A stretch of 64,000 bases of DNA, taken from the NCBI RefSeq assembly GCF_000243395.2, contig NZ_CM001484.1, positions 664,089 to 728,088 of the forward strand, in the 5' to 3' direction. The position numbers were made by a program, and so were the translations under genes. The stretch is from Saccharomonospora glauca K62. GTDB taxonomy: Bacteria > Actinomycetota > Actinomycetes > Mycobacteriales > Pseudonocardiaceae. The notes beneath the pieces were generated by a model. It made no database searches. It saw only the letters and a program-made list of their open reading frames with translations, and was not told the origin of the DNA. Of this stretch, positions 3,716 through 60,613 are shown one piece after another; the stretch's first letter is position 1, and each line of letters starts with the position of its first letter.

Positions 3716-4336
3716 ATGCGCCTGCTGCCGTGTGCCGACACGGGGTTGCTCGTGGAGCTCGACGACCTGGCCCAGGTCATGGGCTTGCACGCGGCGTTGC
3801 GCGCCGACCCGCCCGTCGGGGTGGTGGATCTCGTTCCGGCCGCTCGCACGCTACTGGTGCGGTTCGATCCTCGTCGGACCGATCGCGCCACCGTGGAAGG
3901 CGCCGTGAAGTCCGCGAGCGCCGCTCGGCCCGCGGAAACGACCCGTGGGGAGACCGAACTCGTCGAGATCCCCGTGACCTATGACGGCGACGACCTCGCC
4001 GAGGTCGCCGACCTCCTCGGCCTCACCCCACGGGAGGTGGTCGCCGCGCACACGAGCGCGCGGTGGACCGTCGCGTTCGGCGGGTTCGCCCCCGGTTTCG
4101 GGTACCTGACGGCCGAGGAGTGGCCCCACGACGTTCCCCGCCGTGGGGAGTCCCGCACCGTCGTGCCGGAGGGAGCGGTGGCGGTGGCGGGGCCGTTCAG
4201 CGGGGTGTACCCGAGATCGTCGCCCGGTGGGTGGCAGCTCATCGGGCGTACCGAGACGGCGCTGTGGGATCTCCACCGTGATCCGCCCGCCCTGCTGCGG
4301 CCCGGAGTGAACGTGCGATTCGTGGAGAAGTCGTGA
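3716..4336 (+). CDS. pxpB: 5-oxoprolinase subunit B (KipI-like)
   Basis: PxpB, PxpC and PxpA together form an ATP-dependent 5-oxoprolinase that opens pyroglutamate to glutamate; B. subtilis KipI is the older name for this subunit. The family signatures are here: a central RWTVAFGGFAPGFGYL and a C-terminal GVYPRSSPGGWQLIGRT. The ATG at 3716 is chosen because GGAGGTGGTGAC sits directly before it; an upstream in-frame TTG at 3662 would run through the operator palindrome and add a non-conserved leader. Length (206 residues) is usual. It shares a 4-bp overlap with pxpC. No pxpA is adjacent. Confidence 0.88.
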   Translation: MRLLPCADTGLLVELDDLAQVMGLHAALRADPPVGVVDLVPAARTLLVRFDPRRTDRATVEGAVKSASAARPAETTRGETELVEIPVTYDGDDLAEVADLLGLTPREVVAAHTSARWTVAFGGFAPGFGYLTAEEWPHDVPRRGESRTVVPEGAVAVAGPFSGVYPRSSPGGWQLIGRTETALWDLHRDPPALLRPGVNVRFVEKS

Positions 4337-5205
4337 ACGAGCGCGCGGAAATAGGGCTGGAGATCGTGGAGAGCGGCCCTCTCGCCACCGTGCAGGACCT
4401 CGGTCGACCGGGGCTCGCCGGGATCGGCGTCGGCGCCTCGGGAGCCGCCGACCGTGCGGCACTGCGGCTGGGGAACCGCCTCGTCGGCAACCCCGAGGGC
4501 GCGGCGGCCGTCGAGGTGACCTTCGGCGGGTTCGCCGCACTCGCGCGGCGCGACCTGACCGTCGCCGTCACGGGAGCCCCCTGCCCCGTGACCGTCGGGC
4601 GGCGGGGAGGCGCGGTGGGCGCCGTGCTGCGGGTGCGTGCGGGGGAGTGTTTGCGGTTGGGGGTGCCCGAACGCGGACTACGCAGTTACGTGGCGGTGCG
4701 GGGCGGGATCGCCGTGGAGCCCGTGCTCGGTTCCGCCTCCACCGACGTACTCGCCGGGGTGGGACCCCCGCCCCTGGAGGCCGGGCACACGCTGCCGGTG
4801 GGCGTCCCGAGGTTGCCGTTGCCGCCCGTGGACTTCGCTCCCGTGCCGCCGCTGCCCGCGGACGAACTCACGCTGCGCGTCGTTCGGGGGCCCCGCGCCG
4901 ACTGGTTCGCCGACGCCGCGCTGTCCACACTGCTGGGGTGCCCCTACGAGGTGACGTCGCGCAGCAACCGGATCGGCCTGCGCCTCGACGGTCCCGAACT
5001 GGTCAGGGCCCGGCACGAGGAGCTGCCGAGCGAGGGCGTGGTACCCGGCGCGCTGCAGGTGCCTCCGAGCGGCAAGCCCACCCTGTTCCTCGCCGACCAC
5101 CCCGTCACCGGCGGCTATCCGGTGATCGCGGTGGTGCTGTCCGCCGACGTCGACAAAGCGGCCCAGGCAAGACCGGGAGCGAGACTCCGCTTCGTGGAAG
5201 CCTGA
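4333..5205 (+). CDS. pxpC: 5-oxoprolinase subunit C (KipA-like)
   Basis: Biotin-dependent-carboxylase-like family protein, partner of PxpB in 5-oxoproline hydrolysis. Characteristic segments are VQDLGRPGLAGIGVGASGAAD near the N-terminus, SNRIGLRLDGPEL in the middle, and LPSEGVVPGALQVPPSGKP plus ADHPVTGGYPVIAVV near the C-terminus. It starts at a GTG overlapping the pxpB stop (GTGA), so the pair is translationally coupled. At 290 residues it is of normal length. The stop is followed within 6 bp by a 21-bp-period repeat locus that fills the convergent space to the next gene. Confidence 0.88.
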   Translation: MNERAEIGLEIVESGPLATVQDLGRPGLAGIGVGASGAADRAALRLGNRLVGNPEGAAAVEVTFGGFAALARRDLTVAVTGAPCPVTVGRRGGAVGAVLRVRAGECLRLGVPERGLRSYVAVRGGIAVEPVLGSASTDVLAGVGPPPLEAGHTLPVGVPRLPLPPVDFAPVPPLPADELTLRVVRGPRADWFADAALSTLLGCPYEVTSRSNRIGLRLDGPELVRARHEELPSEGVVPGALQVPPSGKPTLFLADHPVTGGYPVIAVVLSADVDKAAQARPGARLRFVEA

Positions 5206-5210
5206 CCATC

Positions 5211-5375
5211 GTGTCCGCAAGTTGTGCACTCGTGTCCGCAGGTTGGGTACGGGTGTTCGCACTTCCCGTACACGGCGGCGCCGCTGGGGCCTCGCCTAGG
5301 CGCACACAAAGCGCGGACACGCGTGCGAGACCTGCGGACACGCGTGCGAGAACTGCGGACACGCGCTCATAACTT
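5211..5375. repeat. 21-bp-period inverted repeat locus A
   Basis: Three plus-oriented units start with GTGTCCGCA or GTGTTCGCA at 5211, 5232 and 5253, exactly 21 bp apart. After a 39-bp spacer, three minus-oriented units (GCGGACAC) start at 5313, 5334 and 5355, again exactly 21 bp apart. The two arms face each other between convergent pxpC and gntR, and the right arm ends 3 bp from the gntR stop codon. Within a unit the first nine bases and a GYAC near the end are best kept, while the middle varies. The same unit recurs near 33.5, 55.0 and 60.6 kb. No protein-coding signal is seen. Confidence 0.85.
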
Positions 5376-32273: not shown

Positions 32274-33455
32274 ATGTCTGAGATCGTGCTCGACAAGGTG
32301 ACCAAGCGGTATCCCGACGGAGCCCTCGCCGTGTCGGAGATGGACATCCACATCAAGGACGGGGAGTTCATCATCCTCGTCGGTCCGTCCGGCTGCGGGA
32401 AGTCGACGGCGCTGAACATGATCGCGGGGCTGGAGGACATCACCTCCGGGGAACTGCGCATCGACGGCGAGCGCGCCAACGAGAAGACGCCGAAGGACCG
32501 CGACATCGCGATGGTGTTCCAGTCCTACGCGCTCTACCCGCACATGAGCGTGCGGGAGAACATGGCGTTTCCGTTGCGACTGGCCAAGGTGGACGACGCC
32601 ACGGTGAAGCGGAAGGTGGAGGAGGCCGCGCGCATCCTCGACCTGACGCAGTACTTGGACCGCAAGCCGGCGAACCTCTCCGGTGGGCAGCGGCAGCGGG
32701 TCGCCATGGGGCGAGCCATCGTGCGTAACCCCAAGGCGTTCCTCATGGACGAGCCGTTGTCCAACCTGGACGCCAAGTTGCGGGGTCAGATGCGCACGTC
32801 GGTGTCGAAGCTGCAGAGGCAGCTCGGCACCACCACCATCTACGTCACCCACGACCAGACCGAGGCCATGACGCTCGGCGACCGGGTCGTGGTGTTGCGT
32901 GGCGGTGTCGTGCAGCAGATCGGCGCGCCGCAGTTCCTCTACGACAACCCCGCGAACCTGTTCGTGGCCGGGTTCATCGGCTCGCCCTCGATGAACTTCG
33001 TGCCGGCCACCCTGGAGAACGGGGCGTTGAACAGCGCCTTGGGCACCATCGAGTTGCCCGACCGGCTGCGGCGGTTGGCCGAACGGGCCGACGCGCCGCG
33101 CGAGGTGATCATGGGTGTGCGCCCGGAGAGCTTCGAGGACGCCGCGCTGCTCGACGACGCGCACCGCCGGAGTGGCACCACCTTCAGCGCGACCGTGGAC
33201 GTGCTGGAGTCGATGGGCTCCGAGAAGTACGCCTACTTCACGGTGGAGACGGAGCTCGCGCAGACCGCCGAACTCGCCGAGCTCGCGGCGGACGCGGGTT
33301 CGGCGGACGTGCCGGGGGCGGGCTCGACGCTCGTGGCCCGGCTGTCGGCGGCCTCGGAGGTCCGGGAGGGCGAGCAGGCGCAGGTGTGGTTCGACCCGGA
33401 GAAGCTCCACCTCTTCGACCCGTCCTCGGGCAAGAACCTCACCTACGAAGGCTGA
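32274..33455 (+). CDS. sugC: Sugar ABC transporter ATPase, SugC/MsmK type
   Basis: ATP-binding subunit of 393 residues. Walker A is GPSGCGKST (37-45), the signature NLSGGQRQRVAMGRAIV, Walker B FLMDEPLSNLD and the switch VTHDQTEAMTLG. A C-terminal OB-like regulatory domain (about residues 240-393) is typical of MalK/UgpC proteins and can serve more than one importer. It is the last gene of the operon; the 467 bp beyond it hold only repeats. Confidence 0.92.
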   Translation: MSEIVLDKVTKRYPDGALAVSEMDIHIKDGEFIILVGPSGCGKSTALNMIAGLEDITSGELRIDGERANEKTPKDRDIAMVFQSYALYPHMSVRENMAFPLRLAKVDDATVKRKVEEAARILDLTQYLDRKPANLSGGQRQRVAMGRAIVRNPKAFLMDEPLSNLDAKLRGQMRTSVSKLQRQLGTTTIYVTHDQTEAMTLGDRVVVLRGGVVQQIGAPQFLYDNPANLFVAGFIGSPSMNFVPATLENGALNSALGTIELPDRLRRLAERADAPREVIMGVRPESFEDAALLDDAHRRSGTTFSATVDVLESMGSEKYAYFTVETELAQTAELAELAADAGSADVPGAGSTLVARLSAASEVREGEQAQVWFDPEKLHLFDPSSGKNLTYEG

Positions 33456-33492
33456 CGCAGGAAGCCAAGCAGGCTGCGGGCACCGAAAGTTC

Positions 33493-33618
33493 GTGTCCGC
33501 AGCCTGTGTGCTTGTGTCCGCAGCCTGTGTGCTTGTGTCCGCAGGTTGTGTGCGGGTGTTTGCAGCCTGTGTACCCGTGTCCGCGGGTTGGGGACGGGTG
33601 TTCGCACTTCTCGTACGG
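33493..33618 (+). repeat. 21-bp repeat locus B, left arm (six units)
   Basis: Six plus-oriented units start at 33493, 33514, 33535, 33556, 33577 and 33598, each exactly 21 bp after the last. They begin GTGTCCGCA, GTGTTTGCA or GTGTTCGCA; the first two are identical and the others have drifted in their second half. The arm begins 37 bp after the sugC stop codon and faces the much larger right arm. Confidence 0.88.
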
Positions 33619-33637
33619 AGGTTTGGAGGTCTAGGGA

Positions 33638-33667
33638 GCGTGTCCGCGCCGGAGGTCGCGGACACGC
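33638..33667. repeat. Hairpin at the junction of the two arms
   Basis: GCGTGTCCGCG (33638-33648) and CGCGGACACGC (33657-33667) pair perfectly over 11 bp with an 8-base loop. The left half is a solitary repeat core in plus orientation; the right half is the first part of the long tandem array. Confidence 0.75.
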
Positions 33668-33922
33668 GTGCGGGAAGTGCGGACACGCGTGCGGGAAGTG
33701 CGGACACGCGTGCGGGAAGTGCGGACACGCGTGCGGGAAGTGCGGACACGCGTGCGGGAAGTGCGGACACGCGTGCGGGAAGTGCGGACACGCGTGCGGG
33801 AAGTGCGGACACGCGTGCGGGAAGTGCGGACACGCGTGCGGGAAGTGCGGACACGCGTGCGGGAAGTGCGGACACGCGTGCGGGAAGTGCGGACACGCGT
33901 GCGGGAAGTGCGGACACGCGTG
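33658..33922 (-). repeat. 21-bp repeat locus B, right arm (12 identical tandem copies)
   Basis: Twelve identical copies of a 21-bp unit (GCGGACACGCG then TGCGGGAAGT) fill 33658-33909, followed by a 13-base partial copy that stops at 33922, directly against the stop codon of the ParB-like gene (33923-33925). Read on the minus strand each unit starts GTGTCCGCA. Complete identity of the copies suggests recent expansion by slippage or unequal exchange. Because 21 is a multiple of three, all frames stay open and give long false reading frames on both strands. There are no spacers, so it is not a CRISPR array. Confidence 0.92.
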
Positions 33923-34768
33923 TCAGCGGCGTTGGAGGCGGACGGCTCGGATGACGTCGTCGTCCCAGCGATGGGTGCGGATCATGCGGTAGCGTTCCCC
34001 GGCGACCCAGAGGTACGCCTCGGCTTCCGTGCGGTCGCCCACCAGTTCGGCCTGGCGCAGCATCTGCACCACCGGCTGGTACTCCTCCTCGTACCACCGC
34101 CGCGCCACGGTCACCCGGTCGAGCAAGGTGCCCTCGTCCTGCATCAGCCGAAAACCCCAGGCCTCGACGTGTTCCCCGAGCCGGGCGTAGTCCTCGGGCT
34201 CGGTCACCACCACGGCCGCACGGGCCTCGCCGCGCAACGGCACTCGCTCCAGGAACAGCCTCCGGTAGCCCTTGACGATGAGGTCACCCCGGTACCGGAT
34301 GCCGGCGGGGTTCAGTTTGGTCCGCACCAGGGTGACGTTGGCCTCGATCGAGGTCAGCCCCAGCGCGTACGCCACCGACACCCGGTGGTGCCCGTCGATC
34401 ACGAAGTGCAGGTCGCCGACCCGGTAGACGTCGATGGGCGGGATGTGCTCACCGCGTCTGCTCGCCGTGGCGAGCCGCTCCCAGCGCTGCCGTACCCGCG
34501 CGGACGTGGGCCGGAACCGGCGGTCGAAGTCACGGCTGCGGTCCACGCTGCCCACGATGGAGTCGAGCCGGATCACCCGCAGTCCGATCCGCCGTTCGTT
34601 TTCCTTGCCGAGGGCTTCCACCACCTCGTCGAACGGCAGCATGATGTTGACGTCGTCCGGTTCGCGCCGCAGCCAGTTGGCCAGCCGGGACAACACCTGA
34701 CGACGTCGTGCTCGGAGGAAGTCGTACTCGGCGTCGGCGCGTGGGAAACCCGTGTCGCGGCTTTTCAC
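33923..34768 (-). CDS. ParB-like nuclease-domain protein
   Basis: A 281-residue protein with a ParB/sulfiredoxin-like core: LPFDEVVEALGKENERR then IRLDSIVGSVDRSRDF and the hallmark VIDGHHRVSVAYALG (DGHHRV at 125-130). It lacks the helix-turn-helix of chromosome-partitioning ParB. The C-terminal half (YRGDLIVKGYRRLFLERVP onward) is not recognised. The GTG start has GGAGG 5 bp upstream and overlaps the phosphoesterase stop by 4 bp, so it is the last gene of a corA-small protein-phosphoesterase-ParB-like operon. Its role is unknown; a nucleotide- or ADP-dependent regulatory function is possible. The repeat array starts right at its stop codon. Confidence 0.78.
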   Translation of the reverse strand: MKSRDTGFPRADAEYDFLRARRRQVLSRLANWLRREPDDVNIMLPFDEVVEALGKENERRIGLRVIRLDSIVGSVDRSRDFDRRFRPTSARVRQRWERLATASRRGEHIPPIDVYRVGDLHFVIDGHHRVSVAYALGLTSIEANVTLVRTKLNPAGIRYRGDLIVKGYRRLFLERVPLRGEARAAVVVTEPEDYARLGEHVEAWGFRLMQDEGTLLDRVTVARRWYEEEYQPVVQMLRQAELVGDRTEAEAYLWVAGERYRMIRTHRWDDDVIRAVRLQRR

Positions 34769-53810: not shown

Positions 53811-55013
53811 ATGTCTGGTACAGGGGGCGGTACGTCGGAAGCCAAGCTTCCGCCGCTCGTCGAGCCGGCCGCCGAACTCACCAAGGAAGAGGTCGCGCGC
53901 TACAGCCGTCACCTCATCATCCCCGACGTCGGCGTGGACGGGCAGAAGCGGCTGAAGAACGCCAAGGTCCTGGTCATCGGTGCCGGCGGGCTGGGAAGCC
54001 CCGCACTGCTGTACCTCGCCGCGGCCGGGGTGGGCACCCTGGGCGTGATCGACTTCGACGTGGTGGACGAGTCGAACCTCCAGCGTCAGGTCATCCACGG
54101 CGTGTCCGACGTCGGCAAGCCGAAGGCCATCTCGGCGAAGGAATCCGTCGCCGAGATCAACCCGTTCGTGAACTTCGTCGTGCACAACGAGCAGCTGACC
54201 ACCGACAACGCGGTGGAGCTGTTCAGTTCCTACGACCTGATCCTCGACGGCACGGACAACTTCGCCACGCGCTACCTCGTCAACGACGCCGCCGTGCTGG
54301 CGGGCAAGCCGTACGTGTGGGGTTCGATCTTCCGGTTCGAGGGCCAGGTGAGCGTGTTCTGGGAGGACGCGCCCAACGGCAAGGGGTTGAACTACCGCGA
54401 CCTCTACCCCGAGCCGCCGCCTCCCGGCATGGTTCCCTCGTGCGCCGAGGGTGGCGTGCTGGGTGTGCTGTGCGCGTCGATCGGCTCCATCATGGTCACG
54501 GAGGCGATCAAGCTCATCACCGGTATCGGTGAGCCGCTGCTCGGCAGGCTCGTCACCTACGACGCGCTGGAGATGCGCTACCGCGAGGTGAAAATCCGCA
54601 AGGACCCGGAGACGCCGAAGATCACCGAGCTGATCGACTACGAGGCGTTCTGCGGCGTGGTGTCCGACGACGCCCAGAAGGCGGCGTCCGGTCACACGAT
54701 CACCCCGGAGGAGCTGAAGGCGAAGTTCGACGCCGGTGAGGACTTCGAACTCATCGACGTCCGGGAGCCGCACGAGTACGAGATCGTCAACATCAAGGGC
54801 TCGAAGCTGATCCCGAAGGACCGCATCCTGTCCGGGGAGGCCTTGGCGGAGCTGCCCCAGGACAAGCCCATCGTGCTGCACTGCAAGTCGGGCGCTCGGT
54901 CGGCGGAGGCGCTGGCGGCCCTGCACAAGGCGGGCTTCCGCGACGCCACGCACCTCGGTGGCGGTGTGCTGGCGTGGGCTCGCCAGGTGGACCCCAGCCT
55001 GCCAACGTACTGA
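53811..55013 (+). CDS. moeZ: Adenylyltransferase/sulfurtransferase MoeZ
   Basis: A 400-residue fusion: an N-terminal E1-like ThiF/MoeB domain (nucleotide loop GAGGLGS at 57-63, FDVVDESNLQRQVIHG) adenylates the C-terminus of sulfur-carrier proteins, and a C-terminal rhodanese domain supplies sulfur through C358 in CKSGARS. In mycobacteria MoeZ makes the thiocarboxylate for MoaD2 and CysO, feeding molybdopterin and cysteine synthesis. The zinc-binding CxxC pairs of E. coli MoeB are absent (NYRDLYPE instead of CYRCL-type), as in other MoeZ proteins. GGAGGA precedes the ATG. Confidence 0.93.
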   Translation: MSGTGGGTSEAKLPPLVEPAAELTKEEVARYSRHLIIPDVGVDGQKRLKNAKVLVIGAGGLGSPALLYLAAAGVGTLGVIDFDVVDESNLQRQVIHGVSDVGKPKAISAKESVAEINPFVNFVVHNEQLTTDNAVELFSSYDLILDGTDNFATRYLVNDAAVLAGKPYVWGSIFRFEGQVSVFWEDAPNGKGLNYRDLYPEPPPPGMVPSCAEGGVLGVLCASIGSIMVTEAIKLITGIGEPLLGRLVTYDALEMRYREVKIRKDPETPKITELIDYEAFCGVVSDDAQKAASGHTITPEELKAKFDAGEDFELIDVREPHEYEIVNIKGSKLIPKDRILSGEALAELPQDKPIVLHCKSGARSAEALAALHKAGFRDATHLGGGVLAWARQVDPSLPTY

Positions 55014-55038
55014 GCCGCTCCGGCGACGTACGACAACT

Positions 55039-55155
55039 GCAAACACGCGTCCGCAGCGTGCGGACACGCGTACATGGTCTGCGGACACGCCGGTATGGGC
55101 ACCCCATACCGGCGTGTCCGCACTTTATGCACGGGTGTTCGCAGTTCTTCGGGGT
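55039..55155. repeat. 21-bp-period repeat locus C with long perfect hairpin
   Basis: Minus-oriented units start at 55039, 55060 and 55081, then plus-oriented units at 55114 and 55135; spacing inside each arm is exactly 21 bp. The arms point away from each other, the reverse of loci A and B. At their junction a perfect 20-bp stem (55080-55099 with 55103-55122) has a 3-base loop. It lies between moeZ and the TIGR02569 gene, both on the plus strand, and its right end merges with the promoter of the latter. Confidence 0.88.
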
Positions 55156-60559: not shown

Positions 60560-60613
60560 CGTACCGGAAGTGCGAACACGCGTACCCAACCTGCGGACAC
60601 GGTATGCACCCTT
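60560..60613 (-). repeat. 21-bp-period repeat locus D (two units)
   Basis: GCGAACACGCG at 60572 and GCGGACACG at 60593 are minus-oriented cores exactly 21 bp apart, with a partial unit before the first. Only one arm is present. The locus lies in the divergent space between the ATL and adnA starts, so this repeat family is not confined to gene ends. Confidence 0.75.

Follow-up and report, generated by a model that had tools for sequence, protein, structure and literature searches.

What is the large array of 21-bp units that separates two convergent genes of the soil bacterium Saccharomonospora glauca K62, and is it peculiar to this locus? A preliminary description of the window, i.e. the whole stretch of 64,000 nucleotides analysed here, reported six plus-oriented units facing twelve identical minus-oriented units and a partial one, joined by an 11-bp perfect hairpin and repeated at exactly 21 bp. 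It considered a nucleoid-protein array, a folded RNA 3' end or a recombination-prone insulator as possible roles.

The arrays of the window and their units

The array occupies a convergent junction, between the end (33455) of a plus-strand gene encoding an ABC-transporter ATPase (32274-33455; Pfam ABC_tran and OB_MalK), whose 3' end is directed toward it, and the stop codon of a minus-strand ORF of 281 aa (33923-34768). The left arm (33493-33618, plus) consists of six units, with cores starting at 33493, 33514, 33535, 33556, 33577 and 33598 according to sequence reading, TRF and a script; the last three cores are degenerate (GTGTTTGCA at 33556, GTGTCCGCG at 33577 and GTGTTCGCA at 33598). The right arm (33658-33922, minus) comprises 12 identical units, GCGGACACGCGTGCGGGAAGT, and one partial unit. 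Both reading and script locate thirteen cores in it, one per 21 bp from 33658 to 33910, and TRF reports 12.6 copies with a 100% match (score 530). The arms meet in a central inverted element (33638-33667), in which sequence reading finds a perfect 11-bp stem, GCGTGTCCGCG/CGCGGACACGC, around an 8-nt loop; the register of this centre, GTGTYCGCR-N8-YGCGRACAC, recurs in further arrays. The two arms, the hairpin joining them and the constant step are thus all borne out. The right edge of the array abuts a TCA that starts at 33923 on the plus strand and is the stop of the minus-strand gene, as had been claimed, but the label 'ParB-like' given to this gene is unproven: its product has no Pfam match at E<=0.001, no NCBIfam match at E<=0.01 and no PDB match at E<=1.

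The locus does not correspond to several familiar objects. A CRISPR, already dismissed in the preliminary description, is ruled out, as the 12 identical units are contiguous, with no spacers between them, and the neighbours tested are transporter, metabolic or unnamed genes. A known structured RNA is ruled out too, the 64-kb window containing no Rfam match above the gathering score. A coding repeat would fit a unit length that is a multiple of 3 and the open frames running across the window array, but the arrays begin after stop codons on both strands, in agreement with the earlier statement that the array is not coding. Furthermore, TGA and TAA triplets occur inside Amycolatopsis units, and an A is kept at a third codon position despite a genome of 70% GC. 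An assembly artefact, which had been put forward as a possible origin of the 12 copies, is opposed by long identical runs at other loci of the genome and by similar runs in other genomes, including the separately sequenced Prauserella salsuginis; a coding or artefactual origin is therefore very improbable. Long identical runs such as that of the window look like local expansions.

The window carries two further arrays that are absent from the preliminary description. The array at 5211-5362, with units in the order +++---, lies at a convergent junction behind a gene of the 5-oxoprolinase/urea-amidolyase family (4333-5205). The array at 55038-55143, behind moeZ (53811-55013), has outward-facing arms around a hairpin (55081-55121). 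A weak pair of cores is also found at 60571-60600. Outside arrays, the window contains about 7-8 lone cores vs about 5 predicted from its base composition.

In S. glauca, a frequent form consists of two arms of about three units each, pointing at each other. Among the 49 arrays that were folded, 31 are two-armed and 18 one-armed. The innermost cores of 28 two-armed arrays are separated by 8 nt in 14 cases, by 29 or 50 nt in six, i.e. 8 plus 21 or 42, and by other distances in eight. C-type cores predominate at the outside of the arms (56/56 at the outermost rank, 52/56 at the second and 25/49 at the third). The 12-nt spacer is variable yet ordered: several positions carry pyrimidines, position 15 is G in 96% of units, and positions 17-18 are mostly AC. 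In the 14 arrays with 8-nt centres, the C/T types of the innermost opposed cores agree in 10 and disagree in three, one involving a G, which is not convincing (Fisher p 0.10 for the 13 C/T cases). No 10.5-bp AT rhythm appears in four sets of units (second-harmonic power 0.04, 0.01, 0.08 and 0.28; p 0.67, 0.89, 0.48 and 0.06), so that gyrase-type wrapping is unsupported.

Abundance, pitch and position relative to genes

The window array has dozens of counterparts in this Saccharomonospora genome. Indeed, GTGTCCGCA-N12-GTGTCCGCA occurs 78+119 times in its 4.56 Mb, and a search of the whole genome for exact GTGTCCGCA pairs separated by any gap of 0-30 nt again returns 78+119 = 197 occurrences, with none for the reversed control. 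As the two totals are equal, all 197 pairs are accounted for by the 21-bp step, and the spacing is 21 bp in every case among the matches listed (about 100 of 197 places). According to the preliminary description, its view would fail if a genome-wide count showed 21-bp spacing to be no commoner than other spacings; the outcome is in its favour, as exact cores at most 30 nt apart are spaced by 21 bp only. The pair is present in 8/12 genomes of the genus, or 8/9 of the good ones, and in 10/297 genomes of a family sample, namely the eight of the genus and two having one or two pairs. A search of plasmids for GTGTCCGCA pairs gave no match; each of two viral contigs has a single GTGTCCGCA pair at 21-bp spacing.

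Some observations concern the layout of the chromosome. Among the matches listed, only two array places (2138525 and 2241722) fall between 1.93 and 2.57 Mb vs many between 0.2 and 1.5 Mb, and a gradient of arrays along the chromosome is possible. Behind one array, at about 616200-616290, TTGTCCACA is present twice directly and once inverted; we take this word to be the actinobacterial DnaA box, and two of its nine letters are changed in the array core GTGTCCGCA.

Position relative to genes was scored with a simple gene caller in the window, in 20 stretches of 20 kb taken at even spacing and in 32 others centred on listed pairs, these array-centred stretches coming nearly all from the first 2.64 Mb of the S. 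glauca genome. Of the 52 clusters sampled, two lie inside called genes or regions, and the other 50 were assigned to a type of gap: 26 convergent, 13 and 6 co-directional and 5 divergent. The 398 background junctions of the window and the evenly spaced stretches are distributed differently (71 convergent, 142 and 115 co-directional, 70 divergent), and the convergent excess of arrays, 26/50 vs 71/398, is highly significant (Fisher p 4e-7); the depletion in divergent gaps (5/50 vs 70/398) is not (p 0.23). In the unbiased stretches alone, i.e. the window and the evenly spaced ones, 6/13 arrays are convergent.

The arrays are also close to the ends of genes. Leaving out the two arrays inside genes and one weak pair, 41/49 are at most 30 nt from a gene 3' end, and the other 8/49 are farther away. 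Sliding each array within its own gap gives an expectation of 30.6/49, and 41 was reached in 0/20000 simulations; random 30-mers in gaps fall within 30 nt of a 3' end in 10.2% of cases, a null that is too lenient as arrays are longer. The distance from stop codon to core has its mode at 5 nt (12 ends), followed by 4 nt (8 ends). In co-directional gaps, the array is closer to the 3' end of the upstream gene in 17/19 cases and to the downstream 5' end in one, with one tie, and the unit nearest a 3' end is in sense with the gene in 49/59 cases. Other Saccharomonospora species agree, 55/63 scored arrays being at most 30 nt from a 3' end (24/29 in G002, i.e. S. cyanea, 8/8 in G010, 12/13 in G006, 9/9 in G011, 2/2 in G001 and 0/2 in G008), a count that omits eight clusters located in called genes or at the edge of a stretch, and those devoid of an exact core.

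The same pitch is found with other words in related genera. When 86 loci were scanned with TRF, namely 80 that surround the neighbouring gene in other species, locus L129 and five transposase loci, 60 intergenic rows with a period of 12-60 were obtained; period 21 was the commonest, with 14 rows in eight loci belonging to Prauserella, Amycolatopsis and S. piscinae. Pairs of ACTCGCGTG occur in 7/14 genomes, with a maximum of 91+99 in A. roodepoortensis (G300), and are spaced by 21 bp throughout among the matches listed, which include none from G302 and G309 and few from G300; the control gave a single match, in G308. Pairs of GTGTCCTGC occur in 7/15 genomes, and 109/124 of those among the matches listed are at 21 bp, with one control match. 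The proportion is 79/80 in P. salsuginis (G312) and 18/22, 8/12, 3/6, 1/2, 0/1 and 0/1 elsewhere, the 15/124 pairs at other spacings reflecting a looser pitch in some Prauserella genomes. As for CAACTCACC, A. sp. GM8 has 11/11 pairs at 21 bp; three pairs at other spacings were found in two genomes where the reversed control is also three. By eye, CGCGTG is common to the units of Saccharomonospora (lineages with an ACGC spacer end), of Prauserella and of the ACTCGCGTG type. Globally, Amycolatopsis and Prauserella have arrays of other words (ACTCGCGTG, CAACTCACC, GTGTCCTGC) at mostly the same pitch. In A. roodepoortensis, 8/9 scored clusters (10 sampled) are at most 30 nt from a 3' end, some being called as overlapping it by up to 31 nt; of 11 arrays of P. 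salsuginis, 9 are convergent and 10 one-armed, and for 6 the distance to a 3' end does not exceed 30 nt. Tandem repeats with a period of about 30 bp, several with a palindromic unit (e.g. around GTGAAGGCCACCTTCAC), were also seen between genes of Amycolatopsis, Prauserella and Actinophytocola.

Evolution and folding of the arrays

The junction of the window carries an array in G002, G011 and G006 too; instead of an array, G001 and G008 have a strong hairpin of the ordinary kind there, and a single core-like word left over. At the moeZ junction, outward-facing arms are found in four of the five other species (G002, G006, G008 and G001, with extra plus units) and none in G011. Flanking sequences match 19 of the 52 S. 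glauca clusters to one of 29 arrays of S. cyanea with high scores, and a 20th weakly. Two of these matched pairs are identical and the others show changes in units or in copy number; arrays thus remain in place at orthologous junctions, and their units turn over. Two S. glauca arrays, at 1438290 and 1439096, are letter-for-letter the same in S. cyanea with very high flank scores, which suggests a recently exchanged segment. A lineage-wide switch in spacer consensus is also visible, the spacer ending in ACGC in G000 (S. glauca), G002, G011, G001 and G008, the last two being represented by only 12 and 10 units, and in AGCC in G006 and G010.

Some arrays of distant loci resemble each other closely. 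The window array and an array at 905808, 208 kb off, are 96.8% identical over 317 bp, in a match whose start precedes the first full core by a single base and which stops short of the left flanks. The arrays at 617175 and 1192115 share 96.8% identity along 156 bp, which make up almost the whole of the former. In both pairs, identity is confined to the arrays, and the S. cyanea counterparts of the four loci are arrays with other contents. The simplest reading is copying between existing arrays of different loci. As regards features of MITEs or other insertions, the copied stretches start at the array edge, and the syntenic regions, 79-88% identical, are too distant for a comparison of empty sites.

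The arms fold unequally. Among the S. glauca arrays tested, from which the window array was excluded as too long, 29/31 two-armed ones fold strongly (z -3.8 to -14 vs shuffles); 17/18 one-armed ones fold like shuffles (z -1.5 to +1.0), one reaching z -5.3. In A. roodepoortensis, 8/10 arrays are at z -5.7 or lower; the 11 arrays of P. salsuginis range from z -2.6 to +1.7, none folding strongly. As the latter are mostly one-armed and weakly folding, the hairpin is not the shared feature. If pairing were kept by selection, the best match of an arm would be expected within its own locus, and this was examined in 28 two-armed arrays whose arms were exchanged between loci (the window array, whose order is disturbed by a stray minus core at 33475, was left out). 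Opposed units agree at 6.75/12 spacer positions in their own arms vs 7.15/12 in arms swapped among loci, with 1935/2000 shuffles at least equal to the observed value, and permutations gave arm duplex energies as good or better in 4786/5000 cases for the outer parts and 1698/5000 for the inner parts. Own arms are thus no better than swapped ones, which argues against covariation between arms. Five species have retained the stem of the hairpin behind moeZ (55081-55121); of its 18 pairs, two are compensatory and most are invariant. Predicted hairpins thus do occur inside some of these gene-end elements.

Candidate functions and known systems

The reading that we tentatively prefer, with a probability of about 0.4, is that the window array represents a gene-end element, dispersed in the genome, of which this copy has expanded locally, and that such elements are phased protein-binding arrays serving as roadblocks or insulators at gene ends. 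Each element consists of DNA sites at a pitch of 21 bp, i.e. two helical turns, often in two opposed arms across a short centre; it follows stop codons at a distance of a few nucleotides, with a preference for convergent gaps. A putative sequence-specific DNA-binding protein would occupy successive sites on one face of the helix; once bound, it would act as a roadblock ending transcription from one or both sides and would also insulate the adjoining genes. In two-armed arrays, the transcript could additionally fold into a long hairpin that would assist. Arrays would grow by duplication of units and be rewritten through copying between loci, so that each lineage would come to have its own word and mostly keep the pitch. 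The features that are shared are pitch and position, not word or hairpin, which favours recognition of double-stranded DNA with helical phasing; combined with the position at gene ends, such recognition would make a roadblock or an insulator the likeliest job. Confidence is only modest, because the protein is putative and because copying among arrays could hold words and pitch uniform without any bound factor. It is more doubtful that a clade of Pseudonocardiaceae would mark its gene ends by phased arrays read by a dedicated, fast co-evolving putative DNA-binding protein, with at least four words at constant spacing, the protein filament being a bidirectional transcription stop and a bacterial counterpart of protein-roadblock terminators.

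Several observations weigh against the roadblock: the good folding of 29/31 two-armed arrays and the two compensatory pairs of the moeZ hairpin, as expected of an RNA terminator, the arrays that lie far from 3' ends (8/49 in S. glauca, both of G008, 5/11 in P. salsuginis) or in divergent gaps (5/50), the lack of an array at the window junction in G001 and G008, the lack of an AT rhythm and the 15/124 off-pitch pairs of Prauserella. Two serious rivals must thus be weighed. Transcribed inverted arms may form a long hairpin behind the stop codon, acting as a bidirectional U-less ('I-shaped') intrinsic terminator or protecting mRNA 3' ends. The strong folds, the 8-nt centre of 14/28 two-armed arrays, the moeZ hairpin kept in five species, the other strong hairpins at array-less orthologous junctions and a location within 50 nt of stop codons, as in mycobacterial I-shaped terminators (PMC12288462, in its available part), all point this way. 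However, 17/18 one-armed arrays of S. glauca and the 11 Prauserella arrays, in similar places, fold about like shuffles, the arms do not covary, and a hairpin needs neither a 21-bp pitch nor a lineage-wide word; this reading is alive for two-armed arrays and, as a general explanation, somewhat unlikely. As regards the roles listed in the preliminary description, the results support an element of gene 3' ends, show recombination-like copying and weigh against an RNA hairpin as the common denominator; a bound protein is putative.

The other rival, alive for all arrays and on the whole unlikely, is a BIME-like repeat, i.e. a satellite or selfish repeat spread by ectopic gene conversion or insertion, gathering behind genes where it is least harmful and perhaps secondarily used (e.g. 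by gyrase). It accounts well for the two 96.8% identical pairs, whose identity stays within the arrays, for the other contents of their S. cyanea counterparts and for a location like that of REPs, mostly between convergent and unidirectional genes (PMC3733652, as far as its available text goes). It is less at ease with array positions, and the outward orientation of one array, that are kept across species, with a 4-5 nt stop-to-core mode and one pitch under four words, which exceed passive tolerance, and with the lack of a RAYT gene in five of the eight array-bearing genomes of the genus (G000, G002, G009, G010 and G011).

Dispersed repeats behind genes are a kind of element already known in general; to our knowledge, a fixed pitch with changing words is new, and among the matches listed of a search of open-licence PMC papers, no title or abstract start describes such arrays. 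The arrays hint at an unfamiliar way of marking or stopping gene ends. If phased sites stop or insulate transcription, this would be a device different from hairpins and Rho, and changing words at a constant pitch would amount to a natural experiment on the joint change of a protein and hundreds of sites. Should they be no more than repeats driven by conversion, the arrays would still exemplify the concerted evolution of numerous loci between the genes of a compact bacterium.

Like the arrays, uptake signal sequences found at convergent terminators consist of a 9-bp word present as inverted pairs at gene ends. They differ in that here the window has only about 7-8 lone cores, vs about 5 predicted from base composition, and the word forms tandem arrays at 21 bp.

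REPs are mostly located downstream of genes, between convergent and unidirectional genes; the available part of PMC3733652 defines them by a short palindromic unit of 20-40 bp with a GTAG or CGTC tag, the CGTC family being devoid of a dedicated transposase. The arrays share with REPs and BIMEs many dispersed copies behind genes (41/49 within 30 nt of a 3' end), in convergent or unidirectional gaps (5/50 being divergent), often as opposed foldable pairs. They differ by a unit that is not a 20-40 bp palindrome, by a consensus without GTAG or CGTC tag and by a head-to-tail arrangement at a 21-bp pitch that is sometimes one-armed. No RAYT gene (Y1_Tnp, PF01797) was found in S. glauca, nor in four of the other seven array-bearing genomes of the genus. 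The REP/RAYT reading is rejected, as tag, unit and transposase are unmatched, although the location is matched. PF01797 genes are present in G001, G005, G006 and G008, without clear relation to the arrays, G005 being array-less.

The I-shaped terminators of mycobacteria, which lack a U-tract, lie within 50 nt of the stop codon according to the available part of PMC12288462, as the arrays often do, and two-armed arrays form hairpins like them. However, strong folds characterize 29/31 two-armed arrays vs 1/18 one-armed and 0/11 sampled Prauserella arrays (lowest z -2.6), and phased tandem units with lineage-wide words set the arrays apart. Prokaryotic satellites are tandem repeats that change in copy number, among which transposed non-coding families are rare (PMC6749651, from the part available, where Amycolatopsis mediterranei appears in a table only and Saccharomonospora is absent from the main text). 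The arrays are likewise tandem repeats of changing copy number, but they are two-armed, tied to gene ends and built on one pitch with several words across genera.
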